A program made the translations under genes and the position numbers. Below, one piece after another: positions 178-63,479 of a stretch of DNA of 64,000 nt. The DNA is taken from positions 310,001 through 374,000 of the forward strand of contig NZ_SZVI01000012.1 of assembly GCF_013416775.1 (NCBI RefSeq). The letters run 5' to 3'. The stretch comes from Rhodoferax sp. BLA1. Its GTDB lineage: Bacteria > Pseudomonadota > Gammaproteobacteria > Burkholderiales > Burkholderiaceae_C. The notes below the pieces were generated by a model that saw only the letters and a list, made by a program, of their open reading frames with translations, did no database searches and had not been told where the DNA came from. The first letter of the stretch is position 1. Every line of letters begins with the position of its first letter.

Positions 178-1055
178 TGCCACCCATGCGAATCCCCTTT
201 ACCAAAATGCAAGGTGCTGGCAACGACTTTGTGGTGCTGGACGAAACCCGCACCCACTACGGCCTCACCCCCGCGCAATACCGCTTTCTGGCCGACCGCC
301 ACTTTGGTGTGGGCGCCGACCAGATCCTCACGGTGCGCCCGGCCACCAGCCCCGACATGGATTTCTCCTACGTCATCCACAACGCCGACGGTGGCCAGGT
401 CGAGCACTGCGGCAACGGCGCGCGCTGTTTCATGGCTTTTGTGCGCCGTCAGGGCCTCACCGCCAAAGACGTGGTGACGGTGCAGACCATGAACCGCGTC
501 TTGCAGTTACAACGCCAGCCCGATGGCCGGGTCACGGTCGACATGGAGGCGCCGGACTTTGCGCTGGCCCACCTGCCGTTTGACGCCACTGGTTTGCAGG
601 TCGACCCCTCCGGTTCTTGGGAAAAATGGCCTCTAGCCCTTAACAATCAAGGGCAGATCACTATTGTTCAAGTAGCGCTGGTGTCCATGGGCAACCCCCA
701 TGCGGTGACGCTGGTGGACGATGTCGACACGGCCCCGGTGTTGACCCTGGGGCCGCTGGTGCAGCAGCAGGGTGCCTTCCCGCGTGGTGTCAATGTGGGG
801 TTTATGCAGGTGCTGGACCGCAGCCACATCCGCCTGCGCGTGTTTGAGCGCGGCGCCGGTGAAACCCTGGCCTGCGGCACTGGTGCCTGTGCGGCGGTGG
901 TGGCGGGCATCCGCCTGGGGCTGCTCGACGTCACGGTCGATGTGGCGACCCACGGCGGCACCCTCACCATCAGCTGGCAGGGCGGCAGTGCGCCGGTGCT
1001 GCTGACCGGCCCGGCCACCGTGGTTTTTGATGGCGAAATTGAACTCCCGAACTGA
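177..1055 (+). CDS. dapF: Diaminopimelate epimerase
   Basis: DapF converts LL- to meso-diaminopimelate in the cytoplasm, the last step before lysine and the source of the third residue of the murein peptide. Both catalytic cysteines are present in their usual settings: C78 in HCGNGARCF and C233 in LACGTGAC. The length of 292 residues is slightly above the family norm of about 275-280. ATG 177 overlaps an upstream stop as TAATG; ATG 186, giving [10 protein letters not shown], matches the family start better and may be the real one. Residues about 152-168 are encoded by a copy of the dispersed palindromic repeat described separately. The order dapF-DUF484-xerC is conserved in many proteobacteria. 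Confidence 0.97.
626..678 (-). repeat. Dispersed palindromic repeat, copy in dapF
   Basis: Read on the minus strand this shows CTGCCCTTGATT, a short loop, then AAGGGCTAGAGGCCAT, the core of the repeat family. It is read in frame through dapF and encodes a segment just before the conserved MGNPHAV motif. Confidence 0.7.
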
Positions 1056-1063
1056 AGGCAAAC

Positions 1064-1783
1064 ATGTCACCCACCTCCCATTTCCCCAGCGCCATTGGCA
1101 GCCCGATCACCGAAGACGACATCGCCAACTATCTGGCCAACACCCCTGATTTTTTTGAACGCCATGCCGAGTTGCTGGCCGCCGTGCAGCTCACCAGCCC
1201 GCACAGCCAGCGTGCGGTCAGCCTGCAAGAGCGCCAGGCCACCTTGTTGCGCGAAAAAATCCGCATGCTGGAGCAGCGCATCATGGACATGATCCGCAAC
1301 GTCAACGAAAACATGGTGTTGTCCGACAAGCTGCTGTTCTGGGCGCGCACCCTGTTCCTCAACACCGATGTGCAGGCGCTGCCGCAGCTGATTGCCGACG
1401 AGCTGGCTGACCAGTTTTCGGTGCCGCAGGTCGGCATCAAGGTCTGGGGTGTGGCGCCGCAATACGCGGCCTGCGAGTTTGCCACCGGCGTCAGCGACGA
1501 TGCCAAGTCCTTTGCCACCTCGCTGACCGAGCCGTTTTGTGGTGTCAACACCGGGCTGGAGGCGATCAACTGGCTGCCCGAACCCCAGGCGGCGGTGTCG
1601 CTGGCGATTCTGCCGCTGCGTGGTTTGCCGGAGACCAACGGCGCACACGGCGGTGTGGCGCCAGCGTTTGGTCTGCTGGTGCTGGCCTCCCCCGACGCAC
1701 AACGTTTTGCCAGCACCATGGGCACCGATTTCCTGGCGCGTATTTCCGAGCTGGCCAGCGCAGCGCTCTCGCCGCTGCGTTAG
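1064..1783 (+). CDS. DUF484 family protein
   Basis: This 239-residue protein belongs to the DUF484 (YigA-like) family, normally found between dapF and xerC, as here. Family members are predicted to hold a GAF-like fold; their biochemical role is not established. The N-terminal part carries the typical opening (a segment like DIANYLANTPDFFERH) and a helical coiled-coil-like stretch at about residues 55-85. The central part from about residue 95 would be the GAF-like domain. It starts 8 bases after dapF and has no signal peptide, so it should be cytoplasmic. Context links it loosely to XerC-mediated dimer resolution or to dapF, but that is inference only. Confidence 0.9.
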   Translation: MSPTSHFPSAIGSPITEDDIANYLANTPDFFERHAELLAAVQLTSPHSQRAVSLQERQATLLREKIRMLEQRIMDMIRNVNENMVLSDKLLFWARTLFLNTDVQALPQLIADELADQFSVPQVGIKVWGVAPQYAACEFATGVSDDAKSFATSLTEPFCGVNTGLEAINWLPEPQAAVSLAILPLRGLPETNGAHGGVAPAFGLLVLASPDAQRFASTMGTDFLARISELASAALSPLR

Positions 1784-1809
1784 TCTCTGTTGCACCGCTT
1801 GTACCGCGC

Positions 1810-2775: not shown

Positions 2776-2811
2776 CGACTTTCCCCTCAACTTCTCATCA
2801 ACAGGTGCCCT

Positions 2812-3123: not shown

Positions 3124-4305
3124 ATGAAAGTTATCCGTCTGCGACCCGGCAAGGAACGTTCCCTCCTGCGTCAACACCCTTGGATTTTTGAGTCGGCCAT
3201 TGCCCGTGGGAGTGCCGACCCCGGTGAAACCGTGCGTGTGGAATCGAGCGAGGGCCAGTTTCTGGCCTGGGCGGCGTTCAGCCCCAGCTCCAAAATCCGC
3301 GCCCGGGCCTGGAGTTTTGACGAGCAGCAACGCATTGATGCATCGTTTTTTGTAGCTACTTGCGCAAACGCCATCAGGGCTAGAGGCCGATTTGGCATAC
3401 AAAGCAACGGTGTGCGCCTGATTCACGGCGAGTCTGACGGCTTGCCCGGGCTGATTGTGGACCGCTATGCCGACACGCTGGTGGCGCAGTTCACGAGCGC
3501 CGGTGTCGAGCGCTGGAAAGACGTGATTGCCGATGCGCTGCTGGCCGCCACCGGCCTGACCAAACTGTACGAGCGCAGCGACGCCAGCAGCCGCACACTC
3601 GAAGGCCTGGCCGAAGCCACCGGCTGGCTGCGTGGTGAGGGCGAGGTCGAGCTGTTGCTGCAGGAGCACAGCTGGCAGCTCGCGGTGAACATCGCCGAAG
3701 GCCACAAAACCGGCTTTTACCTGGACCAGCGCGACAGCCGCAAACGCTTTTTTGACTACTGCCAACGGCTCAAGTTTGAGCGGGTGCTCAATTGCTACTG
3801 TTATACCGGCGGCTTCACCGTGGCCGGGCTGCAAGGTGGTGCGGCGCATGTCACCTCGATCGACTCCAGTGGCCCGGCACTGGCCAAGGCGGCGGCCAAT
3901 GTGGCGCTCAATGGGCTGGCATCAGATCGCGCCAGCTTCATGGATGCGGATGTGAACGCCTCGCTGCGCCAGTTTGCCGAGCAGGGCCGCACATTTGACG
4001 CCATCGTGCTCGACCCGCCCAAGTTTGCACCCACGGTGGCGCATGCCGAACGCGCCGCGCGGGCCTACAAAGACATCAACCGCCTGGCCTTCAAGATTCT
4101 GGAGCCCGGGGGGGTGTTGTTCACCTACAGCTGCTCGGGCGGCATCAGCGCCGACCTGTTCCACAAAATTGTGGCGTCGGCCGGATGTGACGCCGGGGTC
4201 GACGGTTTTATCCACGAACGTATGGGTGGCGCGCCAGACCACCCGATGACCATCCATTTCCCAGAGGGGGAATACCTGAAAGGTCTGGTGGTCATGCGTA
4301 AGTAA
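3124..4305 (+). CDS. rlmI: Class I SAM-dependent rRNA methyltransferase, RlmI family
   Basis: The protein resembles RlmI, which makes m5C1962 in 23S rRNA. Residues about 2-75 form a PUA domain (MKVIRLRPGKERSLLRQHPW), followed by the RlmI-specific middle domain and a Rossmann methyltransferase domain. The SAM-binding region contains NCYCYTGGFTVAG, and motif IV is VLDPPKFAP near residue 298. The late TYSCSGG motif carries the cysteine expected for m5C chemistry. The length of 393 residues is normal. Residues about 76-92, in a variable linker, are encoded by a copy of the dispersed palindromic repeat. Substrate position is inferred from family; other YccW-like members may differ. Confidence 0.9.
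   Translation: MKVIRLRPGKERSLLRQHPWIFESAIARGSADPGETVRVESSEGQFLAWAAFSPSSKIRARAWSFDEQQRIDASFFVATCANAIRARGRFGIQSNGVRLIHGESDGLPGLIVDRYADTLVAQFTSAGVERWKDVIADALLAATGLTKLYERSDASSRTLEGLAEATGWLRGEGEVELLLQEHSWQLAVNIAEGHKTGFYLDQRDSRKRFFDYCQRLKFERVLNCYCYTGGFTVAGLQGGAAHVTSIDSSGPALAKAAANVALNGLASDRASFMDADVNASLRQFAEQGRTFDAIVLDPPKFAPTVAHAERAARAYKDINRLAFKILEPGGVLFTYSCSGGISADLFHKIVASAGCDAGVDGFIHERMGGAPDHPMTIHFPEGEYLKGLVVMRK
3346..3400 (+). repeat. Dispersed palindromic repeat, copy in rlmI-like gene
   Basis: This is one of the best plus-strand copies: TTTTTGTAGCTACTTGCGC, a loop, then AGGGCTAGAGGCCGATTTGG. It is read in frame within the methyltransferase gene. Confidence 0.75.
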
Positions 4306-15570: not shown

Positions 15571-16991
15571 GCACCCTGATGACCCTGCAACAAGCTGCCT
15601 GCTGGCTCGATCAGGCGCAAACCGTGGGAATGGACGCGACTGTGCCGGTGGCGATTGCCCGGGTGCACAGCGACACCCGTAGCCTGCAGCCCGGTGACCT
15701 GTTTGTGGCGCTGCGTGGTGAACGTTTTGACGCCAATGCTTTCCTGGCCGAGGCCAAGGCCAAAGGAGCGGTCGCTGCCATTTGCCAGGGCGAAGGCGCC
15801 GCTGCCCAACTGGTGCAAGCCGGTTTGCCTGGTTTGGTGGTGCCCGATGCGCGGCTGTCGCTGGCACAGCTGGCCACGCAGCACCGTGCCCGGTTTGCGC
15901 TGCCCTTGATCACGGTGACCGGCAGCAATGGCAAAACCACGGTGACCCAGATGGTCGCGGCCATCTTGCGTGCCCACCAAGGCGCCGCCGCTCTGTCCAC
16001 CCAAGGCAACTTCAACAACGACATTGGCGTGCCGCTCACCGTGCTGCGTCTGACCCCGGCCAACACCATCGCGGTGGTTGAACTGGGCATGAACCACCCC
16101 GGTGAAATTGCCACGCTGGCGGCCATTGCCCAGCCCACGGTGGCGCTGGTCAACAACGCCCAGCGTGAGCACCTCGAATTCATGCACACGGTGCAGGCCG
16201 TGGCTGAGGAAAACGGCTCGGTGATCCATGCGCTGCCTGTTGACGGCGTGGCGGTGTTCCCGGCGGACGACGTCTACAGCCCGGTCTGGGCAGCCTTGGC
16301 GGGTCAGCGCCAAGTGCTGACTTTTGCGGCGCAGGCTCAGGCGGGTGCCGATGTGTTTGTGCTGCAAGCCGGTTGGCAGAACGCCGCCTGGCACGTCAGC
16401 GCCAGCACACCCGCCGGTGCGCTGTCCTACAGCTTGCACATCGCCGGTGCCCACAACGTCAAGAACTCCCTTGCAGCGGTGGCCTGTGCCCTGGCAGCCG
16501 GTGTGCCGCTGGCCGCCATCGCGCAGGGGTTGAGTGCGTTTGAACCGGTCAAAGGCCGCAGCCGGGCACTGCAGCTGCAGCACCTGGGTCGCGCCATCAC
16601 CGTGGTGGACGACACCTACAACGCCAACCCGGACTCGGTACGCGCCGCCATCGACGTGTTGGCGGCTTTACCCGGGCCGCGTCTGCTGGTGCTCGGCGAC
16701 ATGGGCGAGGTGGGTGACCAGGGCCCGCAGTTCCATGCCGAGGCGCTGGCCCATGCCCGCCAGAAGAATATAGAAAAAGTGCTTGTGACCGGTATACAAA
16801 CTGGGCAGGCAGCTATGAATTTTGAAGAGATCAAGGTGTACCCCGAGATGATGGATTTACAAGCGGCGGTGCTCAGCACCTTGCCGGAGGTGGCCAGTGT
16901 GCTGGTCAAAGGTTCGCGTTTCATGAAGATGGAGCGCGTGGTGGAGGCACTGCTGGCCACCGCTGACGCATCCAAGGGGGTCACATGCTGA
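15567..16991 (+). CDS. murF: UDP-MurNAc-tripeptide:D-Ala-D-Ala ligase
   Basis: MurF adds D-Ala-D-Ala to complete the UDP-MurNAc pentapeptide. ATG 15567 overlaps the murE stop by ATGA; the frame is open back to 15333 but that part is inside murE. Motifs include the ATP loop [13 protein letters not shown] near residue 118, EHLEFMHTV, and [12 protein letters not shown] near residue 345. With this start it has 474 residues, close to family size. Residues about 401-420 are encoded by a diverged copy of the dispersed repeat, close to the C-terminal domain. The end overlaps mraY by seven bases. Confidence 0.97.
16768..16823 (-). repeat. Dispersed palindromic repeat, diverged copy in murF
   Basis: On the minus strand the segment begins AAAATTCATAGCTGCCTGCC, matching the repeat's outer AGCTGC arm and AT-rich edge. 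The second arm is diverged. It is read in frame through murF. Confidence 0.45.
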
Positions 16992-21098: not shown

Positions 21099-22170
21099 CA
21101 AGTGCGCCTTGATCATGGCCGGTGGCACAGGTGGCCACATCTTCCCGGGGCTGGCGGTGGCGCAGGCGCTGCGTGCGCAGGGTTGGCGCGTGCACTGGCT
21201 CGGTGGTCGCGGTCAACCGGGCCAGCCCAGCATGGAAAGCCAGCTGGTGCCGCCGGAAGGGTTTGCCTTTGAGGCGATTGAATTTGGGGGCCTGCGTGGC
21301 AAGGGCTTGAGCACGTTGGCCCTGTTGCCGCTGCGTCTGCTCAAGGCCTTCTGGCAGAGCATCCAGGTGCTGCGCCGGGTCCAGCCCGATGTGGTGGTGG
21401 GCTTGGGTGGCTACATCAGTTTCCCCGCTGGTTTGATGGCGGTGGCACTGTGCAAACCGCTGATCCTGCACGAACAAAATTCGGTGGCGGGTCTGGCCAA
21501 CAAGGTGCTTGCCGGTGTGGCAGACCGTGTATTCACCGCGTTCCCGAATGCCCTCAAGGGCGCCCAGTGGGTTGGTAACCCCTTGCGTGCCGCCTTTTTG
21601 AACCTGCCTGCGCCGGAGCAGCGTTTTGCCGGGCGCAGTGGGCCCCTCAAACTGCTGGTGGTAGGTGGCAGTCTGGGCGCCAAGGCGCTCAACGAGATCG
21701 TGCCGCAGGCGCTGGCGCTGCTGCCAGCAGACCAACGCCCCAGCGTGCTGCACCAAAGCGGCGCCAAGCAGATCGACGCCCTGCGTGCCAATTACGCCCA
21801 GGCCGGTGTGGCGGCCGAGTTGACGCCTTTCATCGACAACACCGCCCAGGCTTTTGCCGAGGCCGACCTGGTGATCTGCCGCGCCGGTGCCAGCACCGTG
21901 ACCGAGCTGGCCGCCGTGGGCGCCGCTGCCTTGTTTGTGCCGCTGCCGCATGCGGTGGATGACCACCAGACGGCCAACGCCCGCTTCCTGGTCGATCAGG
22001 GCGCGGGCTGGCTGGTGCCGCAGCGCGAACTGACGCCGCAGAAGCTGGCTGACATGTTATTAAAAATGGAGCGATCTACCCTTATGAATCAAGGGCTAGA
22101 GGCTAAAAAGTTGCAAAAACTGGAGGCCACCGAGCAGATCGTGGCAGCGTGTGTGGAGGTGACCCCATGA
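21094..22170 (+). CDS. murG: UDP-GlcNAc:undecaprenyl-PP-MurNAc-pentapeptide GlcNAc transferase
   Basis: MurG converts lipid I to lipid II on the cytoplasmic face of the membrane. The glycine-rich MAGGTGGHIFPGLA loop is at residues 8-21, and LHEQNSVAGLAN and the GASTVTE donor-site motif are present. ATG 21094 has GGAGG six bases upstream; the frame is open back to 20968 in ftsW. It has 358 residues, the usual length. Residues about 325-340 near the C-terminus are encoded by a copy of the dispersed palindromic repeat. Confidence 0.98.
   Translation: MSKCALIMAGGTGGHIFPGLAVAQALRAQGWRVHWLGGRGQPGQPSMESQLVPPEGFAFEAIEFGGLRGKGLSTLALLPLRLLKAFWQSIQVLRRVQPDVVVGLGGYISFPAGLMAVALCKPLILHEQNSVAGLANKVLAGVADRVFTAFPNALKGAQWVGNPLRAAFLNLPAPEQRFAGRSGPLKLLVVGGSLGAKALNEIVPQALALLPADQRPSVLHQSGAKQIDALRANYAQAGVAAELTPFIDNTAQAFAEADLVICRAGASTVTELAAVGAAALFVPLPHAVDDHQTANARFLVDQGAGWLVPQRELTPQKLADMLLKMERSTLMNQGLEAKKLQKLEATEQIVAACVEVTP
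22061..22113 (+). repeat. Dispersed palindromic repeat, copy in murG
   Basis: AGCGATCTACCCTTATGAA is followed by TCAAGGGCTAGAGGC and an A-rich edge. CCCTT and AAGGG form the inner stem. It is in frame near the 3' end of murG. Confidence 0.75.
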
Positions 22171-22268: not shown

Positions 22269-23689
22269 AACACGCCATCAAACACATCCACTTCGTCGGT
22301 ATCGGCGGGGTTGGCATGTCCGGCATTGCCGAAATTTTGTTCAACCTGGGCTACACCATTTCCGGCTCGGACCAGGCCGACAGCGCCACATTACAACGCC
22401 TGGCCAGCCTGGGTATCCAGACCTGCATCGGCCATGCGGCCAGCCAGGTGGCGGGTGCTGATGCGGTGGTCACCTCCACCGCCGTGCAGGCCGACAACCC
22501 CGAGGTGCTGGCGGCCCGGCACAGCCGCATCCCGGTGGTGCCACGCGCGCTGATGCTGGCCGAACTCATGCGCCTCAAACGCGGTATTGCGATTGCCGGC
22601 ACCCACGGCAAAACCACCACCACCAGCCTGGTCGCCAGTGTGCTGGCCGAGGCCGGGCTGGACCCGACCTTTGTCATTGGTGGGCGCCTCAACAGCGCCG
22701 GTGCCAATGCCCGCCTGGGCAAGGGCGACTACATCGTGGTCGAGGCCGACGAGTCGGACGCGTCCTTCCTGAACCTGTTGCCGGTGATGGCGGTGGTGAC
22801 CAACATCGACGCCGACCACATGGAAACCTATGGGCACAACTTCGAGAACTTGAAGAAGGCCTTTGTCGACTTTCTGCACCGCATGCCGTTTTATGGCACC
22901 GCCATCCTGTGCACCGACGACCCGGCGGTGCGTGCCATCGTGCCGCAGGTCACCTGCCCGGTCACCAGCTACGGTTTTGAGGAAGGTGCCGAAGTGCGCG
23001 CGGTCGATGTGCGCGCGGTGGACGGCCAGATGCACTTCACCGTGCAACGCCGCAACGGCGAGGTCTTGCCCGACCTGCAGGTGGTGCTGAACCTGGCAGG
23101 CCGCCACAACGTGCTCAACGCCTTGTCGGCGATTGCGGTGGCGACCGAACTCAATATTGCTGACGACGCGGTGTTGCGCGCCTTGGCCGGGTTCAAGGGC
23201 GTGGGGCGGCGCTTTCAGCGTTATGGCGATCTGCCCGCGCGCAACGGTGGCCACTTCACCGTGGTCGACGACTACGGCCACCACCCCATCGAGATGGCGG
23301 CCACGCTGGCGGCGGCGCGCGGTGCCTTCCCCGGGCGGCGCCTGCTGCTGGCCTTCCAGCCGCACCGCTACACCCGCACGCGCGACTGTTTTGACGACTT
23401 TGTCAAAGTCATCGCCCAGGCCGACGCGGTCTTGTTGACCGAGGTCTATGCCGCTGGTGAAGCCCCCATCGTCGCTGCCGACGGCCGCAGTCTGGCGCGG
23501 GCGCTGCGTGTGGCCGGCAAGATCGAACCCGTGTTTGTCGACAGCATTGCCGACCTGCCACAAGCCATTGCCGACAACGCCCGCGACGGTGATGTGGTGC
23601 TGTGTATGGGCGCCGGGTCGATTGGTGCGGTGAGTGGCAAGGTGGTTGATTTGCTCTTGAATCAAGAGCTAACAGCGCAGGAGATATAG
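22265..23689 (+). CDS. murC: UDP-N-acetylmuramate:L-alanine ligase
   Basis: MurC starts murein peptide synthesis by adding L-Ala to UDP-MurNAc. The N-terminal [17 protein letters not shown] motif, ATP loop [13 protein letters not shown] near residue 115 and VVDDYGHHP are intact. The 474-residue length is typical. A GGGAGA site lies ten bases before the start. The last nine codons overlap a partial copy of the dispersed repeat. ddl starts five bases after the stop. Confidence 0.98.
23646..23680 (-). repeat. Dispersed palindromic repeat, partial copy at the murC end
   Basis: GCTCTTGAATCAAGAGC is a near-perfect palindrome followed by TAACAGC. It matches the TAGCTCTT-type variant on the minus strand and encodes part of the MurC C-terminus. 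Confidence 0.5.
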
Positions 23690-23694
23690 GGGCT

Positions 23695-24654
23695 ATGAGC
23701 CAATTTGACCTAAAAACAGAGAAAGTCGCCGTGCTGCTGGGTGGCCAGTCTGGTGAGCGTGAGGTGTCGCTGATGTCGGGCTCCGGCGTGCTGGAGGCGC
23801 TGCGCTCGCTGGGTGTCAACGCCCACGCGTTTGACCCGAGCCAGCGTGACCTGAGTGAACTCAAGAAAGAGGGCTTTACCCGCTGTTTCATCGCGCTGCA
23901 TGGCCGTTTTGGTGAAGACGGCACGGTACAGGGTGCGTTGGAGCTGCTGGGCATCCCCTACACCGGCCCGGGCGTGATGGCATCGAGCATTGCCATCGAC
24001 AAGATCATGACCAAACGCCTGTGGCTGGCCGACGGGCTGCCCACACCGGCCTGGCGTCTGGTGGCCAGCGCCCAGGCCACCGAAGCCGCGTATGCCGAGT
24101 TGGCCCAGCCCGGTGCCCCCATGATTGTCAAACCCGCACGTGAAGGCTCGACCCTGGGCCTGAGCAAGGTCACCAGCGCCGACCAGTGCGCCGCCGCTTA
24201 TGCCCTGGCCGCTGGCATGGATGAGGAAGTGCTGTGTGAACAGTTCATCGCGGGTGATGAAGTCACCGTGCCGGTGCTCGGCAGTGGTGTTTTGGCGCGG
24301 GTGTTGCCGGTGATCCGTATCCAGGCGCTCGACGGCAACTACGACTTCCAGGCCAAGTACTACACCAACACCACGCGTTATCTGGTGCCCGCCGGTTTGC
24401 CCGAGGGCGAAGAGGCCGCGATCCAGGCCTTGGTGTTGCGGGCCTACCAGAGCCTGGGTTGCCGTGGTTGGGCACGTGCCGACGTGATGATCGACGCGGC
24501 CACCCGCAAACCCTATCTGCTGGAGATCAACACCTCGCCGGGCATGACCAGCCACTCGCTGGTGCCGATGTCGGCCAAGGCCGCTGGCATCAGCTACCCC
24601 GAACTGTGTCTGCAGGTGCTGCAGACCGCCACCCTGGACCACGCCCTCGCATGA
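23695..24654 (+). CDS. ddl: D-alanine:D-alanine ligase
   Basis: Ddl makes D-Ala-D-Ala for MurF. It is an ATP-grasp enzyme of 319 residues. The [14 protein letters not shown] opening, the HGRFGEDGT loop, [14 protein letters not shown] in the ATP-binding domain and the metal-binding EINTSPGMT motif are all present. Its stop overlaps ftsQ by ATGA. It is the DdlB-type copy normally found inside dcw clusters. Confidence 0.97.
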
Positions 24655-40900: not shown

Positions 40901-40929
40901 GGTGATGGGGCTCTGGTTTGCTGCAGGAT

Positions 40930-40975
40930 ATATAGCTATCTGCCCTTATTGAATAAGGGCTATAGCTTGAAATAC
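40930..40975 (+). repeat. Dispersed palindromic repeat between ruvC and cdsA-like gene
   Basis: This copy is nearly a perfect palindrome: TATAGCTATCTG, CCCTTATT, a single G, AATAAGGG, CTATAGCT. The reverse strand of its right arm encodes the last residues and TAG stop of the cdsA-like gene. Confidence 0.85.
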
Positions 40976-41958
40976 CATCTGGCGGAGTAGAAAAACACGG
41001 GCGCTGCAAAACACAGCGCGTCGATGTGGTCAAGCATACCGCCTGCGCCAGTGACGGCGGTGCGCTGGCCGCGCCACATCGGGATGCCCCGGTCGCGTTT
41101 GAGCGCCTTCATCACCAGGTGCCCCATGCTGCCTGCGGCACACGCAATGAAAGACAGCGCAAACGCCTGGCCCGGCACAAAGGGGGTGATGCCCGACAAC
41201 AAGGCTCCCATCAGGCTGCCTGCGGCCATGCCTGCACGCCAGGCGCGCCAGATGAAGCTCTGGCTGATGGCGGGCACCGCCGGGCGTTTGCCCAGTTGCA
41301 TCAAACGGTGTGACACCAGGTGCTGGGTGACCATGCAGGTCTGCACCACCAGCACCAGAAACAGCACCAGAAATGCGTTTTGGTGGTTGTAGTGCGGGAA
41401 CTTGAGCAGCAGCAGCGCCGGCACATGGCTCATGCCGTAGATACACACCATGATGCCCCACTGCAGCTTGGCGTTGCGCTCCAGAAACTGTTTGGGGTCG
41501 TTGGCCAGCACGCTGGTCACTGGCAGCGCCAGAAACACATACACCGGGATGAACACCGTGAACAGCGCCACCTGCCCGGTGCCCACCAGCCAATACTGGC
41601 ACGGCAGGATGACAAAAAACGCCAACACCAGGCTACGGTGGTCCCCATGGCGGGTGGGTGAGAGTGTCAGAAACTCGCGCAGCGCAAAAAACGAACCCAG
41701 CGCAAACAAGACCAGGCGCGAGATGTCCCCGGCCAGCCAGGCCAGCCAGAACACAAACACCAGCAGCCAGCTGGTTTTGAGCAGCTGGGTCAGCCGGTCG
41801 AGCTCGTCGCGGTGTTGTGCGCCCTGCTGCGGGTCATCAAACTCGCGCATGGAGCGCAAAAAAATCACCAGCCCGCCGACCATCAGCAGGCCAAACACGA
41901 TGATGAACAGCGCACCGATCTGTTCGGTGGGGTTGAGGTTTCTCAGGGCCCGATGCAT
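40960..41958 (-). CDS. cdsA: CDP-diglyceride synthetase-like phosphatidate cytidylyltransferase
   Basis: The protein is 332 residues from ATG 41958 (MHRALRNLNPTEQIG), with about eight to nine membrane segments. The C-terminal cytidylyltransferase signature is recognisable: GHLVMKALKRDRGIPMW, then GAGGMLDHIDALCFAAPVFF with the conserved Asp pair. Combined with the upstream acyltransferase it would turn phosphatidate into CDP-diacylglycerol. It may be a second, specialised CdsA, because the housekeeping copy usually sits near dxr/uppS. The WYFKL end and stop codon come from the dispersed repeat. Confidence 0.85.
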   Translation of the reverse strand: MHRALRNLNPTEQIGALFIIVFGLLMVGGLVIFLRSMREFDDPQQGAQHRDELDRLTQLLKTSWLLVFVFWLAWLAGDISRLVLFALGSFFALREFLTLSPTRHGDHRSLVLAFFVILPCQYWLVGTGQVALFTVFIPVYVFLALPVTSVLANDPKQFLERNAKLQWGIMVCIYGMSHVPALLLLKFPHYNHQNAFLVLFLVLVVQTCMVTQHLVSHRLMQLGKRPAVPAISQSFIWRAWRAGMAAGSLMGALLSGITPFVPGQAFALSFIACAAGSMGHLVMKALKRDRGIPMWRGQRTAVTGAGGMLDHIDALCFAAPVFFYSARWYFKL

Positions 41959-43434: not shown

Positions 43435-44271
43435 TCAGATACCCATGTGTGCCCGCAGTTCAGCCAGCACCTGCGCCGCAGGCGGCATCACACCGCGCCA
43501 GATGGCAAAAGCCTCGGCGGCCTGTGCCACCAGCATGCCCAGACCGTCGCGCGGCACCGCACCGTGGCTGTGTGCCCAGTCCAGGAAGGGTTTGGCAGCG
43601 GCGCCGTACATCATGTCGTAGGCCAGTGCGCCGGGCGCCAGCACATGCGCGCTCACCGGGACGCCGTGGCCACCCAGGCTGCTCGCTGTGCCGTTGATGA
43701 TGATGTCGAATTGTGCCTCTAGCCCTTTTAGATCTTGGGCTAGTAGCTCTACATTGTGTAGCGCGGCGAGGGGCAGGTGGCGCGCCACCAGCTGTTCGGC
43801 TTTGGGCAGGGTGCGGTTGGCCACGCAGATCTGGGCGGGCTGGGCTTGGATCAGCGGGCCCAGCACGCCCGCAGCGGCCCCGCCGGCCCCCATCAGCAAC
43901 ACGCGCTTGGCTTTGAGCGACACCCCGGCGTTTTGTTCGATATCGTCGACGAGACCAATGCCGTCGGTGTTGTCGCCCAGGATCTGCCCGGGTTTGAAGC
44001 TCAGGTGGTTGCAGGCCTGGGCCAGCTTGGCACGTTCGCTGGTGTGGGTGGCCAGCAGGGCCGCCTCAAACTTGAACGGCACGGTGATGTTGCAGCCGTG
44101 CCCGCCTTCGTCGATGAAGGCCTGCACACTGCCGGGAAAATGGTCCAGCGGGATCTCCCGCTTGGTGTAGAGCATGTCCTGCCCGGTGAGTTCGGCAAAG
44201 CGGGTGTGGATCCAGGGCGACTGGCTGTGCGCCACCGGGTGGCCCATCACGCAGTAGAGGTCGGTGCTCAT
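43435..44271 (-). CDS. aroE: Shikimate dehydrogenase
   Basis: AroE reduces 3-dehydroshikimate with NADPH in the aromatic pathway. From ATG 44271 it is 278 residues. SxS at residues 16-18, K67 in NITVPFK and D103 in DNTDG are the shikimate-binding and catalytic residues. The NADPH loop GAGGAAAGVLG follows near residue 132. A copy of the dispersed repeat encodes about residues 172-186 (about LLAQDLKGLEAQF). The mtgA neighbour is a common arrangement in Burkholderiales. Confidence 0.96.
   Translation of the reverse strand: MSTDLYCVMGHPVAHSQSPWIHTRFAELTGQDMLYTKREIPLDHFPGSVQAFIDEGGHGCNITVPFKFEAALLATHTSERAKLAQACNHLSFKPGQILGDNTDGIGLVDDIEQNAGVSLKAKRVLLMGAGGAAAGVLGPLIQAQPAQICVANRTLPKAEQLVARHLPLAALHNVELLAQDLKGLEAQFDIIINGTASSLGGHGVPVSAHVLAPGALAYDMMYGAAAKPFLDWAHSHGAVPRDGLGMLVAQAAEAFAIWRGVMPPAAQVLAELRAHMGI
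43709..43755 (-). repeat. Dispersed palindromic repeat, copy in aroE
   Basis: On the minus strand it reads GTAGAGCTACTAGCCC, a loop, then AAAAGGGCTAGAGGC and CAATT, a close match to the family. It is in frame within aroE. Confidence 0.8.
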
Positions 44272-45160: not shown

Positions 45161-47226
45161 GGGGCGGAATTATCGCCGGGTGCCGGGTCGCCTTCGCCCA
45201 GGTCCACCGCAATCGCAATCGGGCCGGCCAGGGTGTCGTCGTCGGACTCGTCGTCTGGCGCCTCGGCCGTGTCGCCTGCGCTTTTGTCGTCCGGGCCACC
45301 GTCGAGTCGCGCGGTCACGGTGCCGTGGATGTCGAGCGAGACCTCGTCGATGTCACCCAGGCGCACCATCACCTGCGCCCAGCGTGGCAGGCCCTGGGCA
45401 CCAGCCACCGGCAACACCAGCGGCAGGTGGTCGGCGCGCACCAGGTTGTCCTTGAACAGGCTCGCGGGCAGCTCGGTGATGCCTTGCTGTTGCACATATT
45501 TGAGCACCCAGAAACGCTCCATCGCGTTCTGGAAGCCGTTGTAGGCGGCGTAGGTGGCATCAAAGCTGGAGATGATCGAAAACAGCTCGGCGTCCTTGGG
45601 TTTGAACGGCGCGGCCAGCGCGGCGGTGTGCCCAAAGCGCGCGCAGGCAATGATCTGCCACTGGTTGACCAGGTCGGTGTAACGGCGCAGCGGCGAGCTG
45701 CTCCAGGCGTAACTCTTCACCCCGATCCCGGCGTGCGGCAGCGCCTTGGTGCCCATGCGCACCTTGACACCTGGCGCCAGGCTGGCCTGGCTGCGGTAAA
45801 TGCCAGGCACGCCCAGGTCTGCCATCCAGCTGCCCCAGCTGCTGTTGGCCAGAATCATCGCCTCGGAGACGATCAAATCCAGCGGTGCGCCACGCTGGCG
45901 CACACTGATCTCGACCTGTTCATCACCCTTGGGCTCGGCGCCGTTGTTGCCGACCAAGCGGTAGTTGTAGTCAGGCCGGTTGAAGGTCTCGGGTTTGCCA
46001 CGCACGACTTCGCGCTTGGCTTTGAGGTCTTTGGCGAGCCGGTGTAAAAAAGAGAGCGACTCGCGCTTATCCAATAAGGGCTTAGGGTCGATTTCATGCT
46101 CAAAGGCCGGGTTTTCCAGCCAGTCGGTGGTGACCACCGCGTCGAGCTGATCGTGGCGCAGGTTGGCTTCGATAAAGACGCGCTCAAGCTTCGTTTCGCT
46201 GCTTTTGATCTCGAGCGTGGCCTCATCCAACGTGACATACAGCGACACCGCCGGGCAGTTCTGCCCCTCCATCAAGGTGTAGGCCTGCACCACCTCGTCG
46301 GGCAACATGGTGATCTTGTAACCGGGCATGTAGACGGTGGACAGCCGGGCGCGGCCCAGCTGGTCGATTGCGCTGCCGGGCTGGATCGCCAGACCGGGTG
46401 CCGCGATGTGGATGCCCAGCAGCACCGTGCCACTGCCCAAGCCTTGTACCGACAGGGCGTCGTCAATTTCGGTGGTGGCCGAGTCGTCGATGGAGAACGC
46501 GCGTGCGCTGGAGAGCGGCAACTCGTCGGTGATGCGCGGTGCTTCGAGTTTGGGGAAAGCCGTGCCTTTGGGAAAGTTTTCCAGCAAGAAGCGTTTCCAG
46601 TGGAACTGGTAGGGCGAGTCGATGGCGCCCGCCTTGATCAGCAGCTCCAGCGGGCCCAGATGGGTGGCGCGGGATGCTTCCACCACCGCCTTGTATTCGG
46701 GCGCGTTTTTGTCGGGTTTGAACAGAATTTTGTAGAGCTGTTCACGGATCGCGGCCGGGCAGGACCCTGCGCTGAGCTCCTTGACCCAGGCCTCGATCTG
46801 CAGCGCAATCTGTTTCTTTTTCTCGATGGCGGCCAGCGCCTGTGCCAGGATCTCTTTGGTGGCCTTGCGAAAACGCCCTTTGCCCGCACGGCGGAAATAG
46901 TGCGGCGCCTCAAACAGCGCCAGCAGCATGCCGGCCTGTTCACTCAGGGTGGCTTGTTCAGAAAAATAGTCGCGCGCGAGCTCGGCAAAACCAAACTCGT
47001 CTTCGGGGGCAAATTCCCAGGCCATGTCGAGTTCAATGCCGCTGGCCACGGCCTGGGCGGAGGCCATCAGCTGGGCCGGTTCGGGCTTCTCAAACTTGAG
47101 CAGGATGTTGGCCGCTTTGACCTTGACACGTTTGCCGCTGTCGAGCTCGACCTGCGCCGAGGCGTCGGCCTCGGACAGGATCCGGCCAGCGAGGAATTTG
47201 CCGGTTTCTTCAAATAATAGGTGCAT
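45157..47226 (-). CDS. RNase II family exoribonuclease (RNB domain)
   Basis: This 689-residue protein has an SH3-like or OB-like N-terminal domain (about 1-50), a helical region, and an RNB catalytic domain starting near residue 245. The catalytic aspartates are visible in FSIDDSATTEIDDALS, and the later SSPLRRYTDLVNQ motif is conserved. The C-terminal S1 region is short and ends in an acidic tail. I would not assign RNase II or R specifically. ATG 47226 gives MHLLFEETGKFLAG; the frame reaches 47334. One copy of the dispersed repeat encodes about residues 377-393. Confidence 0.9.
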   Translation of the reverse strand: MHLLFEETGKFLAGRILSEADASAQVELDSGKRVKVKAANILLKFEKPEPAQLMASAQAVASGIELDMAWEFAPEDEFGFAELARDYFSEQATLSEQAGMLLALFEAPHYFRRAGKGRFRKATKEILAQALAAIEKKKQIALQIEAWVKELSAGSCPAAIREQLYKILFKPDKNAPEYKAVVEASRATHLGPLELLIKAGAIDSPYQFHWKRFLLENFPKGTAFPKLEAPRITDELPLSSARAFSIDDSATTEIDDALSVQGLGSGTVLLGIHIAAPGLAIQPGSAIDQLGRARLSTVYMPGYKITMLPDEVVQAYTLMEGQNCPAVSLYVTLDEATLEIKSSETKLERVFIEANLRHDQLDAVVTTDWLENPAFEHEIDPKPLLDKRESLSFLHRLAKDLKAKREVVRGKPETFNRPDYNYRLVGNNGAEPKGDEQVEISVRQRGAPLDLIVSEAMILANSSWGSWMADLGVPGIYRSQASLAPGVKVRMGTKALPHAGIGVKSYAWSSSPLRRYTDLVNQWQIIACARFGHTAALAAPFKPKDAELFSIISSFDATYAAYNGFQNAMERFWVLKYVQQQGITELPASLFKDNLVRADHLPLVLPVAGAQGLPRWAQVMVRLGDIDEVSLDIHGTVTARLDGGPDDKSAGDTAEAPDDESDDDTLAGPIAIAVDLGEGDPAPGDNSAP
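46046..46096 (+). repeat. Dispersed palindromic repeat, copy in RNase gene
   Basis: GAGCGACTCGCGCTTAT, a CC centre, AATAAGGGCTTAGGG and CGATTT match the family with some decay. It is in frame within the ribonuclease gene. Confidence 0.6.
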
Positions 47227-52589: not shown

Positions 52590-53531
52590 CTACAGCGTCA
52601 CCGTCCCGTCGATACAGGTCACCACATCGCCCCCCACCCAGACCTGGCCTTGGCCGTCTTGTGACACCATCACCTGGCCGTGTCGCCCCAGGCAGGTGCC
52701 CTGGGTGGCGATGTAGCTACTGGGGGCCAGCCCCTCGGTGATGAGCCACTGGGCCAGGCTGGCGTTGAGGCTGCCCGTGACTGGGTCTTCGTTGACACCG
52801 ATCGGTGCCGCAAAAGCGCGCACCTGTGCCTGGGCCACACCCGGGGCTGCGCCGGGTGTGCTGGTGCGTGGACCAAAGGCGCGTGCCTCGCGGTTGGAGC
52901 GCGCTATCAGTGGTGTAGCTGTTGACCCTTGATCTATATGGGCTACACCCACTTTTTGCCCCAAAGCCTTGAGCGCGGCGTGGTCAGGCTCCAGCGCCAG
53001 AAGCAGCTCCTCGTCATCGAGCAACAGGCCCAACCACAGTGGCCCGTTGTTGAGCAACTGGCTGGCCAGAATGTGCTGCGGCGCCAAGCCGAGTGCGGCG
53101 CTGACATCGGCCAGCAGTTGGGCACTGGGCAGACTGCGTTGCAACGGCGGCGCGGCAAAAACCAGGCGGCGGCCATCGCGGCGGATGCGCACCAGCCCCT
53201 GGCCACATTCCTGCACCACATGGTCAGGTGACTTGGGCTGGCCACCCGCTTGCAGCCAGGCGTGGCAGGTGCCCAGTGTCGGGTGACCAGCAAACGGCAA
53301 CTCACCACCGGGCGTGAAGATGCGCACCTGGTAGTCGGCACCTTTTGCCGCAGCTTCTGGCGTGGGTGGCAGCAAAAAAGTGGTCTCGGACAGGTTGGTC
53401 CAGCGTGCAAAGTGCTGCATGTCGCTGGAGTCCAGCCCCGAGCCGTCCAACACCACGGCCAGCGGGTTGCCGAGGTAGGCGGTGTCGGTGAAAACGTCGA
53501 CTTGTTTGAAGGCTCTGGTGATCATGGGCAC
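52590..53531 (-). CDS. PhzF family isomerase-like protein
   Basis: PhzF-family proteins are two-domain DAP-epimerase-fold isomerases; most outside phenazine clusters have unknown substrates. E49 in TNLSETTF is the conserved catalytic residue, and GGELPFAGHPTLGTCH and EDPVTGSLNASLAQWL are family motifs. It is 313 residues from ATG 53531; ATG 53525 is equally possible. A copy of the dispersed repeat encodes about residues 194-207 (HIDQGSTATPLIAR). Confidence 0.92.
   Translation of the reverse strand: MPMITRAFKQVDVFTDTAYLGNPLAVVLDGSGLDSSDMQHFARWTNLSETTFLLPPTPEAAAKGADYQVRIFTPGGELPFAGHPTLGTCHAWLQAGGQPKSPDHVVQECGQGLVRIRRDGRRLVFAAPPLQRSLPSAQLLADVSAALGLAPQHILASQLLNNGPLWLGLLLDDEELLLALEPDHAALKALGQKVGVAHIDQGSTATPLIARSNREARAFGPRTSTPGAAPGVAQAQVRAFAAPIGVNEDPVTGSLNASLAQWLITEGLAPSSYIATQGTCLGRHGQVMVSQDGQGQVWVGGDVVTCIDGTVTL
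52913..52950 (+). repeat. Dispersed palindromic repeat, copy in phzF-like gene
   Basis: TGTAGCTGTTGACCCTTGA, TCTATA and TGGGCTACA match the family arms. It is in frame within the gene. Confidence 0.6.
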
Positions 53532-57070: not shown

Positions 57071-57088
57071 GGGTGTGCTCCATTTGTC

Positions 57089-57140
57089 ATAGCTATTGGT
57101 CCTTTTGTCGTAAGGGCTGGAGGCAAATTTGGCTTGAATC
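57089..57140 (+). repeat. Dispersed palindromic repeat upstream of racemase gene
   Basis: ATAGCTATTGGTCCTTTT, GTCG, TAAGGGCTGGAGGC and AATTTGGCTTGAA form one of the most complete copies. It lies outside genes in the racemase-mocR control region. Confidence 0.8.
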
Positions 57141-57375: not shown

Positions 57376-58824
57376 ATGTTGGTCAGAACCCGGTCACAGT
57401 CCTTGTCCGCACAACTCGCGGCGCGCCTGGCAGAGCGCATCAACAGCGGTCTGCTGGCTGCGGGTAGCCGCCTGCCTTCGGTGCGTTTGTGTGCGCAGCA
57501 GCAGGACGTGAGCCCGAGCACGGTGGTGGCGGCCTACGACCAGTTGCTGGCGCAGGGCCTGGTGGAGGCCCACAAAAACCGCGGCTTTTTTGTCAGAAAT
57601 CGCACGCTGGCCCTTGTAGATAAAGGGCAGGTTGCTACAAAAAATGTGGATCTGATGCCGCCCGGTGCCAGCTCGGTTGGCAGCGTTTTTGCGGCGCAGC
57701 ATGTGCCGGTCAACGCCACCGCACTGATCCGTGGCATGTTCCAGCGTGGCAGCGACAAACCCCAGCCCGGCCTGGGCGCCTTCCCGCCGGACTGGCTGGA
57801 GACCGGTTTTTTGCCCGCCGCCATCCGCCGTGTCAGCAGTGGTGCGCAGCTGCGCGCCTTGTCGCTGCAGTATGGTGAACCCGCCGGAGACTCGGGGCTG
57901 CGCCAGGCGCTCTCGGCCCGGCTGGCGGCGCTGGCGATTCCGGCCACCGCGCAGCAGATCATCACCACCGTGGGGGCCACCCACGCGCTCGACATCGTCA
58001 GCCGCACCCTGCTGCGCACCGGTGACTGTGTGATGGTGGAGGAGCCCGGCTGGGCCATCGAGTTTGCCCGGCTCGACGCCCTGGGCATGCGCATCCTGCC
58101 GGTGCCACGCGGGCCGGACGGGCCGGACCTGGCGGTGATGGCGCGGTACTGTGAGTTGCACCAACCCAAGCTCTTTGTCAGCGTCAGTGTCTTGCACAAC
58201 CCGACCGGTTTTTGCCTGAGCCCGGGCAGTGCGCACCGCTTGTTGCAGTTGGCCAGCGCGCACAACTTTGTGATTGTGGAGGACGACACCTACAGCCACC
58301 TGGCGCCCGAACACGCCACCCGGCTGAGTGCGCTGGACGGTCTGCAGCGCACCATCTACGTCAGTGGTTTCTCCAAAATCCTGGCGCCCGGCTGGCGCAT
58401 CGGTTTTCTCGCCGCACCCACCCATCTGTACGAACAACTGCTCGACACCAAGCTGCTGGCCACCCTGACCACCCCGGCGCTGCTCGAGAAAGCGCTGGCC
58501 TGGTGCATCGAACAGGGCCAGCTGCGCCGCCATGCCCAGCAGGTGCGCACCCGGCTGGCCCAGGCGCGGGGGCGCAGTGCGACGCTGGCGCTGGCGGCGG
58601 GGTGCCACTTTGTCGCGCCACCGGCGGGCCTGTTTGGCTGGGTCGACACCGGGGTCGACACCGACGCGCTGGCACAACGCATGCTGGACCTGGGTTACCT
58701 GCTGGCGCCGGGCTCGCTGTTTCATGCCAATCGGGCGCCCGGCACGCTGATGCGCATCAACTTCTGCACCACACAGGACGCGGTGTTCTGGCAGGTGTTT
58801 CAGGAGATGCGCGCCAGCTTGTGA
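57376..58824 (+). CDS. MocR-type transcriptional regulator (GntR HTH plus aminotransferase domain)
   Basis: An N-terminal winged helix of the GntR type (about residues 1-75, with SLSAQLAARLAERINSG and LPSVRLCAQQQDVSPSTV) precedes an aminotransferase-like domain with PLP lysine K334 (SGFSKILAPG). The length of 482 residues is typical. ATG 57376 has GGAGGGAG upstream; the frame is open to 57319. The region about residues 77-90 is encoded by a copy of the dispersed repeat, between the HTH and the effector domain. Such regulators respond to PLP or amino acids and often control neighbouring divergent genes, here the racemase and its cluster. Confidence 0.94.
   Translation: MLVRTRSQSLSAQLAARLAERINSGLLAAGSRLPSVRLCAQQQDVSPSTVVAAYDQLLAQGLVEAHKNRGFFVRNRTLALVDKGQVATKNVDLMPPGASSVGSVFAAQHVPVNATALIRGMFQRGSDKPQPGLGAFPPDWLETGFLPAAIRRVSSGAQLRALSLQYGEPAGDSGLRQALSARLAALAIPATAQQIITTVGATHALDIVSRTLLRTGDCVMVEEPGWAIEFARLDALGMRILPVPRGPDGPDLAVMARYCELHQPKLFVSVSVLHNPTGFCLSPGSAHRLLQLASAHNFVIVEDDTYSHLAPEHATRLSALDGLQRTIYVSGFSKILAPGWRIGFLAAPTHLYEQLLDTKLLATLTTPALLEKALAWCIEQGQLRRHAQQVRTRLAQARGRSATLALAAGCHFVAPPAGLFGWVDTGVDTDALAQRMLDLGYLLAPGSLFHANRAPGTLMRINFCTTQDAVFWQVFQEMRASL
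57607..57647 (-). repeat. Dispersed palindromic repeat, copy in mocR-type gene
   Basis: The minus strand reads TTTTTTGTAGCAACCTGCCC, TTATCTACA then AAGGGCC, a full core copy. It is in frame at the HTH-linker junction of the regulator. Confidence 0.7.
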
Positions 58825-60374: not shown

Positions 60375-60422
60375 TGACAGCGTGGTGTGCAAGTCTGGCA
60401 ACTCCAGCGTATCGGACCGAGT

Positions 60423-60500: not shown

Positions 60501-60561
60501 GCGCGGTCTTGTGCAGACGCAGCGCGAACAGGCCCTCCAGGCTCGGCACAGTGTGCTGCCT

Positions 60562-61431: not shown

Positions 61432-61448
61432 GCCCCCTGAGCCGCTTC

Positions 61449-61475
61449 GCGTCTTCCCCCCTGACGGGGGGACGC
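61449..61475 (+). repeat. GC-rich hairpin between gtsB and gtsC
   Basis: CCCCCC (61456-61461), loop TGAC and GGGGGG (61466-61471) form a strong stem, extended by GCGT/ACGC with a bulge. It is of the same general design as the GCCCCC/GGGGGC hairpin in murD. Confidence 0.7.
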
Positions 61476-61543
61476 ACCCTATGGCCAGGCGTAGCCAGTT
61501 CCATGGGTGCTCCCACACATACCCCATGCTCGGGCAAAGACGC

Positions 61544-62404
61544 ATGAATGCCAAATTGTTGCTGTTGTCGCGTCTGCTGGTGTACGGCGTGTTGCTGCTG
61601 GCGGCGCTGTTTTTTCTGGCGCCTTTGTATGTGATGTTGGTCACCAGCTTCAAAGATGCCGAGCAAATCCGTTCCGGCAACCTGGTGAGTTTGCCGAAAG
61701 GGCTGAACCTGGATGCTTGGCGGTTGGCCTGGTCCAGCGCCTGCACCGGGGTCGACTGCCGGGGTCTGCAACCCTATTTTTTGAACTCGGTGACGATGGT
61801 GGTGCCTGCGGTGCTGATCTCCACCGCCTGGGGCGCGGTCAACGGGTATGTGCTGAGTCTGTGGCGTTTCAGGGGCTCGGAGTTCTTGTTTGGCTTGCTG
61901 CTGTTTGGTGTGTTCATGCCGTTCCAGGTGGTGCTGTTGCCGATGAGCCAGGTGCTGGGGGATCTGGGCCTGTCGAGCTCGGTGTTCGGGCTGGTGCTGG
62001 TGCACAGCCTGGCGGGCATGGCGGGCACCACGCTGTTTTTCCGCAACTACTACAGCGCCATCCCGCGCGAGCTGGTCAACGCCGCACGTCTGGACGGTGC
62101 GGGTTTCTGGCGCATCTTCTGGCGCATCGTGTTGCCGATGTCCACACCGATTTTGATGGTGACGCTGATCTGGCAGTTCACCAACATCTGGAACGATTTC
62201 CTGTTTGGGGTGGCCTTCAGCGGTGCCGACAGCCAGCCGATCACGGTGGGCCTCAACAACCTGGCCAACACCAGCAGCAGCGTCAAGAACTACAACGTGG
62301 ACATGGCCGCCGCCATCATTGCCGGCCTGCCCACCATGCTGGTCTATGTGCTGGCTGGCCAGTATTTCGTCAAAGGCTTGACTGCTGGTGCCGTCAAAGG
62401 ATAA
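61544..62404 (+). CDS. gtsC: Sugar ABC transporter permease (GtsC-like)
   Basis: This 286-residue MalG-type permease has six membrane segments and the EAA motif LVNAARLDGAGFWRIFWRI. ATG 61544 gives MNAKLLLLSRLL; the frame is open to 61481. It lies 112 bases after gtsB with a GC-rich hairpin in between, and four bases before gtsD. Confidence 0.94.
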   Translation: MNAKLLLLSRLLVYGVLLLAALFFLAPLYVMLVTSFKDAEQIRSGNLVSLPKGLNLDAWRLAWSSACTGVDCRGLQPYFLNSVTMVVPAVLISTAWGAVNGYVLSLWRFRGSEFLFGLLLFGVFMPFQVVLLPMSQVLGDLGLSSSVFGLVLVHSLAGMAGTTLFFRNYYSAIPRELVNAARLDGAGFWRIFWRIVLPMSTPILMVTLIWQFTNIWNDFLFGVAFSGADSQPITVGLNNLANTSSSVKNYNVDMAAAIIAGLPTMLVYVLAGQYFVKGLTAGAVKG

Positions 62405-62408
62405 GAAC

Positions 62409-63479
62409 ATGGCAGCTTCACTCCACATTGCGGGCATTCGCAAGGTGTTCGGCAAAGGTCCCCGCGCGATTGAGGTGCTCAGCCACATCAACATCGATGT
62501 GGCGCCGGGCGAGTTTCTGATTCTGGTCGGGCCCTCGGGCTGTGGCAAATCGACCCTGCTCAACATCCTGGCCGGGCTGGAGGCGCCCACCGAAGGGGAG
62601 TTGTGGATCGGTGGCAAAAACGTGGTCGACATGCCACCGGCGCAGCGCGACATCGCCATGGTGTTCCAGAGTTATGCGCTGTACCCGACCATGAATGTGG
62701 CGCAGAACATCGGCTTTGCGCTCGAGATGCGCAAGATCCCGCTCGATGTGCGCACCCGCCGTATCCACGAGGTGGCCGCCTTGCTGCAGATCAAGCACCT
62801 GCTGGAGCGCCGCCCGGCGCAGCTCTCGGGTGGTCAGCGCCAGCGGGTGGCCATGGGCCGGGCGCTCGCGCGTGACCCGCAGCTGTTCCTGTTTGACGAG
62901 CCGCTCTCCAACCTGGACGCCAAGTTGCGCGTGGAGATGCGTGCCGAGATCAAACGCCTGCACCTGCTCAGCGGCATCACCAGCGTGTATGTGACGCACG
63001 ACCAGATCGAGGCCATGACGCTGGGCAGCCGCATCGCGGTGTTGAAGGACGGCACACTGCAGCAGATTGGCACCCCCTACGAGATTTACCGCCAGCCAGT
63101 CAACACCTATGTGGCCGGGTTCATTGGTTCACCCACTATGAATTTCATAACAGGTAACGCAAGTGGTACAAGGGCTGATGGCCAATTTTCCTTTGAAGGA
63201 GGGGTTTTGCAGCTGCCCGCACCGGTGGCCGGGGCGGTGACCCTGGGCCAGCGCCCGGAGCACATCCACCTGGCTGATGATGCGCCCTGGCGCGGTGAGG
63301 TCACGCTGGTGGAGCCGACCGGCGCTGACACCTATGTGGTGGTCCAAACTGGTGCCGGGCTGATCAATGTGCGTGTGCCGCCGAGCACCCCGGTGGCCGT
63401 GGGTGACAACGTGGGCCTGACCATCAGCAGCCGCCACAACAACTGGTTTGATGTCCAGACCGGTGTGCGACTCGGCTAA
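62409..63479 (+). CDS. gtsD: Sugar ABC transporter ATPase (MalK/UgpC/GtsD family)
   Basis: Walker A GPSGCGKST is at residues 41-49, the ABC signature LSGGQRQRVAMGRAL follows near 140, Walker B is LFLFDEPLSNLD, and the switch His is VTHDQIEAM. The C-terminal part is a TOBE/MOP-like regulatory domain. Length 356 residues. Residues about 245-264 are encoded by a copy of the dispersed palindromic repeat, just before the TOBE domain (MNFITGNASGTRADGQFSFE). Confidence 0.95.
   Translation: MAASLHIAGIRKVFGKGPRAIEVLSHINIDVAPGEFLILVGPSGCGKSTLLNILAGLEAPTEGELWIGGKNVVDMPPAQRDIAMVFQSYALYPTMNVAQNIGFALEMRKIPLDVRTRRIHEVAALLQIKHLLERRPAQLSGGQRQRVAMGRALARDPQLFLFDEPLSNLDAKLRVEMRAEIKRLHLLSGITSVYVTHDQIEAMTLGSRIAVLKDGTLQQIGTPYEIYRQPVNTYVAGFIGSPTMNFITGNASGTRADGQFSFEGGVLQLPAPVAGAVTLGQRPEHIHLADDAPWRGEVTLVEPTGADTYVVVQTGAGLINVRVPPSTPVAVGDNVGLTISSRHNNWFDVQTGVRLG
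63139..63200 (+). repeat. Dispersed palindromic repeat, copy in gtsD
   Basis: AATTTCATAACAGGTAACGC, AAGTGGTACAAGGGCTGATG, GCCAATTTTCCTTTGAA: arms and right edge match the family. In frame within the ATPase gene. Confidence 0.65.

Follow-up and report, generated by a model that had tools for sequence, protein, structure and literature searches.

Both a receptor, ComP, and uptake itself have been demonstrated for the DNA uptake sequence (DUS) of the Neisseriaceae, a word of 10-12 bp present in many copies in genes and in spacers. DUS form genome-specific dialects (PMC3630211), are thought to arise by recombination, and often lie opposite gaps in other genomes (PMC2397512; this and the other articles are cited for excerpts of their text). 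The uptake signal sequence (USS) of the Pasteurellaceae has a GC-rich core of 9 bp, with about 1,465 core copies in Haemophilus influenzae, and AT tracts on its sides that help uptake (PMC7811141); it also forms palindromic pairs at gene ends (PMC5217627). Repetitive extragenic palindromes (REP) and REPINs with their RAYT are small, numerous, partly palindromic, and mostly intergenic. Rickettsia palindromic elements (RPE) are inserted repeats about 150 bp long that unrelated genes carry in frame and translate (PMC10969869). The subject of this study is a partly palindromic repeat of about 68 bp, here called the motif, in a 64,000-nucleotide stretch of Rhodoferax sp. BLA1 (assembly GCF_013416775.1, contig NZ_SZVI01000012.1, positions 310,001 to 374,000, forward strand), here called the window, and in its relatives. 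The copies of the motif inside genes are existing sequence rewritten to a shared tag with the length of the gene kept, and are not insertions.

The source genome (G000) comprises 4.46 Mb in 15 contigs, and the exact 14-mer core of the motif, AAGGGCTAGAGGCC, occurs in it 82 times, compared with no occurrence of the same pattern reversed. An iterated profile hidden Markov model (HMM), trained partly on copies from the window and with E < 0.01 taken as a supported site, yields 113 sites across 644 kb, of which 11 fall in the window, compared with one in order-3 Markov shuffled sequence. A covariance model trained on 30 copies, none from the window (the outside-trained model), recovers seven copies in the window at E < 0.001, and one more has E = 0.012. 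In the window alone, a plain 13-mer with up to three mismatches has 23 matches, which is barely above chance (shuffle mean 14.35, with 1 of 100 shuffles reaching 23), so the weight of evidence for a repeat family lies in the genome-wide counts. Copy number does not fall to chance level in these controls, and the initial annotation's description of a scattered family of partial palindromes, translated in frame within core genes, stands. The unit runs from -39 to +28 relative to the first A of AAGGGC, beyond which the sequence is near background (30 copies, all outside the window), and its layout is GCTAC, an AT tract, ATAGCT, GC[C/G]CTT, a short AT-rich spacer, AAG[G/C]GCTAGAGGCC, and an AT tract. 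Conserved information amounts to about 53-55 bits over the unit and, uncorrected for sample size, to 54.9 bits in genic copies (n=27) and 55.1 bits in intergenic copies (n=78). The AT-rich blocks lie about 20-24 bp apart and flank the GC-rich blocks; an early impression of a 10-bp AT periodicity did not hold up. The copies in the window are as follows.

613..680, minus strand: inside dapF (gene on the plus strand); 45.7 bits, E = 2e-9 by the outside-trained model; ungapped in 24 of 26 other genomes.
3336..3403, plus strand: inside the rlmI-like methyltransferase gene; 39.9 bits, E = 7e-8 by the outside-trained model; ungapped in 23 of 23.
16793..16827, minus strand: weak partial copy inside murF (gene on the plus strand); 18.5 bits by the iterated HMM, the weakest of the 11; E = 6.4 by the outside-trained model; ungapped in the alignment rows shown.
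22052..22119, plus strand: 3' part of murG; 49.2 bits, E = 2e-10 by the outside-trained model; ungapped in 65 of 65 loci.
23654..23706, plus strand: spanning the murC/ddl junction; 28.1 bits, E = 1e-4 by the outside-trained model; 23.7 bits by the iterated HMM; gaps in several relatives.
40916..40983, plus strand: intergenic, upstream of ruvC; 37.0 bits, E = 4e-7 by the outside-trained model; a gap in its place in several motif-poor genomes.
43699..43766, minus strand: inside aroE (gene on the minus strand); 39.1 bits, E = 1e-7 by the outside-trained model; ungapped in 28 of 28.
46037..46104, plus strand: inside the RNB-domain RNase gene (gene on the minus strand); 24.4 bits by the iterated HMM; E = 0.13 by the outside-trained model; ungapped in 25 of 26.
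52899..52966, plus strand: inside the phzF-like gene (gene on the minus strand); 23.0 bits by the iterated HMM; no match by the outside-trained model; ungapped in 14 of 17.
57073..57140, plus strand: intergenic, upstream of the aspartate/glutamate racemase gene; 42.9 bits, E = 1e-8 by the outside-trained model.
57587..57654, minus strand: inside the mocR-type (GntR/aminotransferase) gene (gene on the plus strand); 20.7 bits, E = 0.012 by the outside-trained model; 29.9 bits by the iterated HMM; ungapped in 15 of 15.

The initial annotation had counted at least 13 copies here. Eleven of its 13 places reach E < 0.01 with the iterated HMM, while an ABC-transporter ATPase gene (its gtsD; 63128-63209, E = 0.42) and alaX (48763-48844, E = 8) are not above chance by the outside-trained model.

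Orthologous DNA was taken from genomes of the same genus and from named Comamonadaceae contigs, and a site was called motif-poor when it had fewer than 25 of 41 motif positions, with sites at 25-29 falling in neither class. Across the 68 bp of the site in six genes (dapF, rlmI, aroE, the RNase gene, phzF, and the mocR-type gene), 129 of 135 orthologous sequences are ungapped; 54 of these 129 are motif-poor, as are all six of the gapped sequences. The murG gene was located in 65 of the 80 loci fetched, and all 65 are ungapped over 23 residues. Differences between genomes at the genic sites are substitutions at equal length, and graded partial motifs are present at the same sites across genomes. 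It had been proposed that each copy seems to add or replace a short peptide, that the copies may be mobile, and that the same segments in orthologues without the repeat would speak against this; such orthologues do carry a segment of equal length, and the proposal of added peptides fails with it. Solved homologues, on which the supposed inserts were to be mapped, have no insert-sized gap in three cases: E. coli MurG has no gap at the motif segment, E. coli RlmI differs by 1-3 residues at the segment edge, and solved AroE enzymes differ by five residues at the segment. The solved DapF enzymes shown are about 11 residues shorter around the place of the motif, but motif-poor and motif-bearing genus-mates are equal in length, so the extra residues were not brought by the motif. 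Insertion of the RPE type in genes is rejected on the ungapped orthologues in all seven genes compared and on the solved homologues. A natural misreading is thereby corrected, as a repeat read in frame inside genes is not necessarily an insertion.

The third bases of codons bear the same mark. The comparison was restricted to codons whose first two bases are equal, scored as identity to G000, and excluded the nearest relative, G004. In motif-bearing genomes, 367 of 470 third bases at motif positions are identical, compared with 4560 of 7414 at positions outside it; the corresponding counts for motif-poor genomes are 99 of 332 and 4007 of 6941. The middle class (score 24-29) shows no difference (97/170 inside, 1708/2927 outside), and G004 itself is identical at 59 of 65 third bases at motif positions. 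Of the 415 codons in the 27 genic copies, 114 (27.5%) belong to the 16 rarest, compared with 4.7% in genes generally, and the G+C fraction at third codon positions (GC3) is 0.364 in genic copies and 0.755 in genes.

The motif is present or missing largely as a set. Site scores in dapF, rlmI, aroE, and the RNase gene correlate with each other (Spearman 0.69-0.85 across 19-26 genomes), and these four of the six genic sites, in unlinked genes, largely hold or lack the motif together; as the compared genomes are related, P values here and below are descriptive. Exceptions in the four-gene comparison are G041, which is mixed, and G055, which has a good RNase site. A tree of the four genes from 25 genomes places the motif-poor genomes in three positions: G003 and G021 (support 1.0) are nested in a motif-bearing clade (0.951), G006 stands beside the motif-bearing G048 (0.991), and the remainder form a larger clade (support 1.0). 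The simple reading of this tree would be several independent losses of the motif set, with gains as the alternative.

Two variants of the core also divide the genus. Counts of GGGC and GCGC cores, respectively, are 82 and 0 in G000, 59 and 0 in G004, and 42 and 0 in G005, compared with 12 and 25 in G010, 18 and 42 in G023, 3 and 11 in G022, and 2 and 8 in G002. Good motif copies at orthologous genic sites carry G in 15 of 15 cases for the first three genomes and in 6 of 15 for the other four (P=0.0007), while a difference in the left arm between the two groups is marginal (P=0.05). Neither variant was found in the 16 genomes searched from other families of the order. Within the family, 59 of 250 searched genomes and 39 of 126 genera have at least one core match, but the reversed control gives as many as 3 in a genome, which leaves single matches with little meaning. 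The G000 profile has a match in 13 of 80 named cell-wall gene cluster loci, including those of Curvibacter and Acidovorax. A strict pattern of the GCGC type was seen on one viral contig, which at most hints at the rarity in acquired DNA expected of an uptake sequence.

Parts of the repeat appear to have been met before. PMC5217627 reports spaced motif pairs in Acidovorax ebreus, GCTTAT(N)5AAGCG with 114 copies (94% intergenic), and in Polaromonas naphthalenivorans, ATAGCT(N)22CAAAAG with 125 copies (81% intergenic); they lie mostly between convergent or co-oriented genes and are left unexplained in the excerpts cited. The same source gives Rhodoferax ferrireducens T118 the most significant motif pairs of all genomes studied, 140. 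The two pairs are probably pieces of the same signal as the repeat described here, and what is new relative to the published excerpts is its origin by substitution, its core variants, and its concerted loss. These pairs and the profile matches at named loci agree with the statement in the initial annotation that a similar repeat occurs in other Comamonadaceae, and its remark that no established name is known also agrees with the open-access literature searched, in which the excerpts of PMC5217627 give the pieces as unexplained pairs and no paper naming an uptake sequence in Comamonadaceae was found. Natural transformation that distinguishes the DNA of different species is reported in the family (PMC4212676). 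Free DNA transformed Verminephrobacter eiseniae, Acidovorax temperans, and A. facilis; no uptake from other Acidovorax species was detected in the Acidovorax examined; and competition in V. eiseniae suggested sequence specificity.

In-place writing, core variants, and concerted loss of a double-stranded signal together point to a trans-acting factor. We give about an even chance to the proposal that the copies are one long, sequence-specific signal of the DNA-uptake type, read in trans and spread by recombination, in Rhodoferax and other Comamonadaceae. Some protein would read the double-stranded signal, DNA carrying the motif would be favoured, and homologous recombination would spread it; the known process that would fit best is biased uptake in natural transformation, as with uptake sequences. 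Were the reader protein lost, copies would erode everywhere, and were its preference to shift, the copies would follow. The motif shares with DUS and USS a copy number far above chance, the use of both strands, placement in genes and spacers, and genome-specific dialects (here among related genomes), and it has the GC-rich core with AT tracts on its sides described for USS (PMC7811141). It differs from DUS, which are far denser and to which no sequence likeness was noticed, and from USS, whose 9-bp core and copy number (PMC7811141) contrast with a length of 50-68 bp and a count of 113 in 644 kb for the motif.

Several results weigh against an uptake-type signal. ComEC is found in 39 of 40 genomes of the genus, motif-free ones included, and the sole genome without a match is the motif-rich draft G023; GspH pilins are found in 35 of 40, where all five genomes lacking a match bear the motif, and good matches are frequent among the motif-poor ones. 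Neither protein separates motif-bearing from motif-poor genomes, and both are rejected as group markers. No receptor that follows the motif was found with ComEC and GspH as the proteins tested among the 40 genomes, ComP-like receptors not having been searched for. Uptake itself is inferred here. Scores in phzF correlate weakly with those at other sites (0.38-0.68) and scores in the mocR-type gene hardly at all (-0.13 to 0.35), both in 10-14 genomes; GCGC-rich genomes keep G at those 6 of 15 orthologous genic sites; and a cassette on plasmids carries a copy of the motif. The motif is sparser than known uptake sequences. Their short core of 9-12 bp is also missing, as the motif is conserved over about 68 bp, so a likeness to uptake sequences is claimed and not membership. 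More tentatively, and with the balance of our judgement against it, the copies may represent a new class of self-recognition signal of 50-68 bp. Something acting in trans would have rewritten hundreds of unlinked places, some of them codons of essential genes, in situ toward one shared sequence; core variants would shift jointly, and the set would be lost as a whole. Such a signal would be the longest known for uptake, or else a drive that copies and overwrites without transposition.

The main rival, which we consider unlikely, is a binding site for a protein of chromosome organisation, segregation, replication, or recombination, which selection would have shaped in place and which would disappear or change along with that protein. 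Comparable chromosome sites are matS, KOPS, and Chi. Origin in place, use of both strands, concerted loss, and core variants would be explained equally well by such a site, and the copies are spread evenly: 33 blocks of 20 kb (one shorter) hold a mean of 3.42 sites with a variance of 3.46. KOPS and Chi are biased toward the leading strand, however, while the motif is not (61 vs 52 relative to GC skew), and chromosome-organising sites are short. Such a role would also leave unexplained the upkeep of hundreds of costly genic copies. In the 644-kb sample, 78 of the 113 sites are intergenic, 27 lie inside genes, and 8 overlap a gene end, as assigned with a simple custom gene caller; the earlier statement that most copies lie inside genes is true of the window but not of this sample.

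A smaller probability is given to templated overwriting, in which single-stranded copies of the motif would pair with sequence that already resembles it in part and take its place with no change in length, a form of copy-and-overwrite drive without transposition. Equal length and a common sequence of 50-68 bp at unlinked sites are in keeping with this, and the graded partial matches could act as annealing sites, but mutation or erosion would produce partial motifs just as well. Neither a source gene nor an enzyme for overwriting was found, the RAYT-like gene being present in motif-free genomes as well.

A mobile palindromic element of the RPE, REP, or miniature inverted-repeat (MITE) kind, inserted in frame in genes and in spacers, is less probable again. 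The spacer upstream of ruvC speaks for it: several motif-poor genomes are without the whole stretch, so that about 50-65 bp must truly have been inserted, or deleted, at this place, although uptake sequences likewise often face gaps (PMC2397512). For target duplication or clean junctions at empty spacers, this single locus is the one spacer site with empty relatives seen. At 40900-40983 of the window and in loci L148 and L149, ruvC and its upstream neighbour nearly adjoin in several motif-poor relatives, while motif-bearing ones have the motif spacer, in which the CTA of GGGCTA is, by eye, the stop codon of the neighbour. A second point in its favour is a weak copy (25.3 bits; L031:2137-2218, G000 contig C8) that by eye extends over the 3' end of the genome's single Y1_Tnp/RAYT-like gene, perhaps by coincidence. 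In genes, the ungapped alignments given above refute insertion for the seven compared. The initial annotation had suggested looking for a RAYT-like gene that tracks copy number, but the correlation is absent: Y1_Tnp has a match in 39 of 40 genomes of the genus, including G003, G006, G007, G012, and G021, which have no exact core copy. A RAYT link is rejected, as the number of Y1_Tnp genes is unrelated to motif load, and the motif is further unlike REP and REPINs in lacking arm covariation (in two genomes) and in being written in place in genes.

An RNA-level element, a terminator or an mRNA structure, is the least probable reading and a very improbable one: among intergenic and end-overlapping copies, divergent spacers are avoided (4/86, background 59/298) and convergent spacers favoured (24/86, background 34/298), and the arms of G000 intergenic copies pair well (mean 5.1 of 6), but genic copies are both sense (8) and antisense (19), no Rfam family reached the gathering score in a search of the window and four loci, and all 40 copies examined in G010 and G023 (20 with GGGC and 20 with GCGC right arms) carry G at left-arm position -11. 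The left arm being constant whichever right arm it faces, pairing does not appear to be what is conserved in these two genomes, which speaks against the hairpin as the conserved feature in them.

Two further sets of observations concern plasmids and a second repeat. A plasmid search with blastn listed 1834 records at E up to 10, of which two were examined; the records NZ_CP054279.1 (L362:1491-1540) and LC623924.1 (L363, 1540-3184) carry the motif. In a class 1 integron, the DUF1010 gene between dfrA12 and aadA2 has a good copy (36.8 bits), possibly a sign that the cassette came from a Comamonadaceae donor. Six copies, spaced at about 320 bp, are present on another plasmid. Positions 13-71 of the window hold a second repeat, GC-rich and palindromic, and among the matches listed many like it occur in G000 and other genomes of the genus, including some with no exact core copy of the motif. 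Its sole match in Rfam is a microRNA, below threshold.

If the motif is an uptake signal, it would to our knowledge be several times longer than those known, and the Comamonadaceae would be another bacterial family with sequence-directed transformation. With several losses and two core variants in a single genus, genome comparison could then lead to the receptor, and ideas on how uptake signals originate, a question left open in the cited excerpts of PMC2397512, would become testable. For the organisms themselves, the codon choice of essential genes in this group, and possibly some of their residues, are shaped by a signal at the level of DNA.

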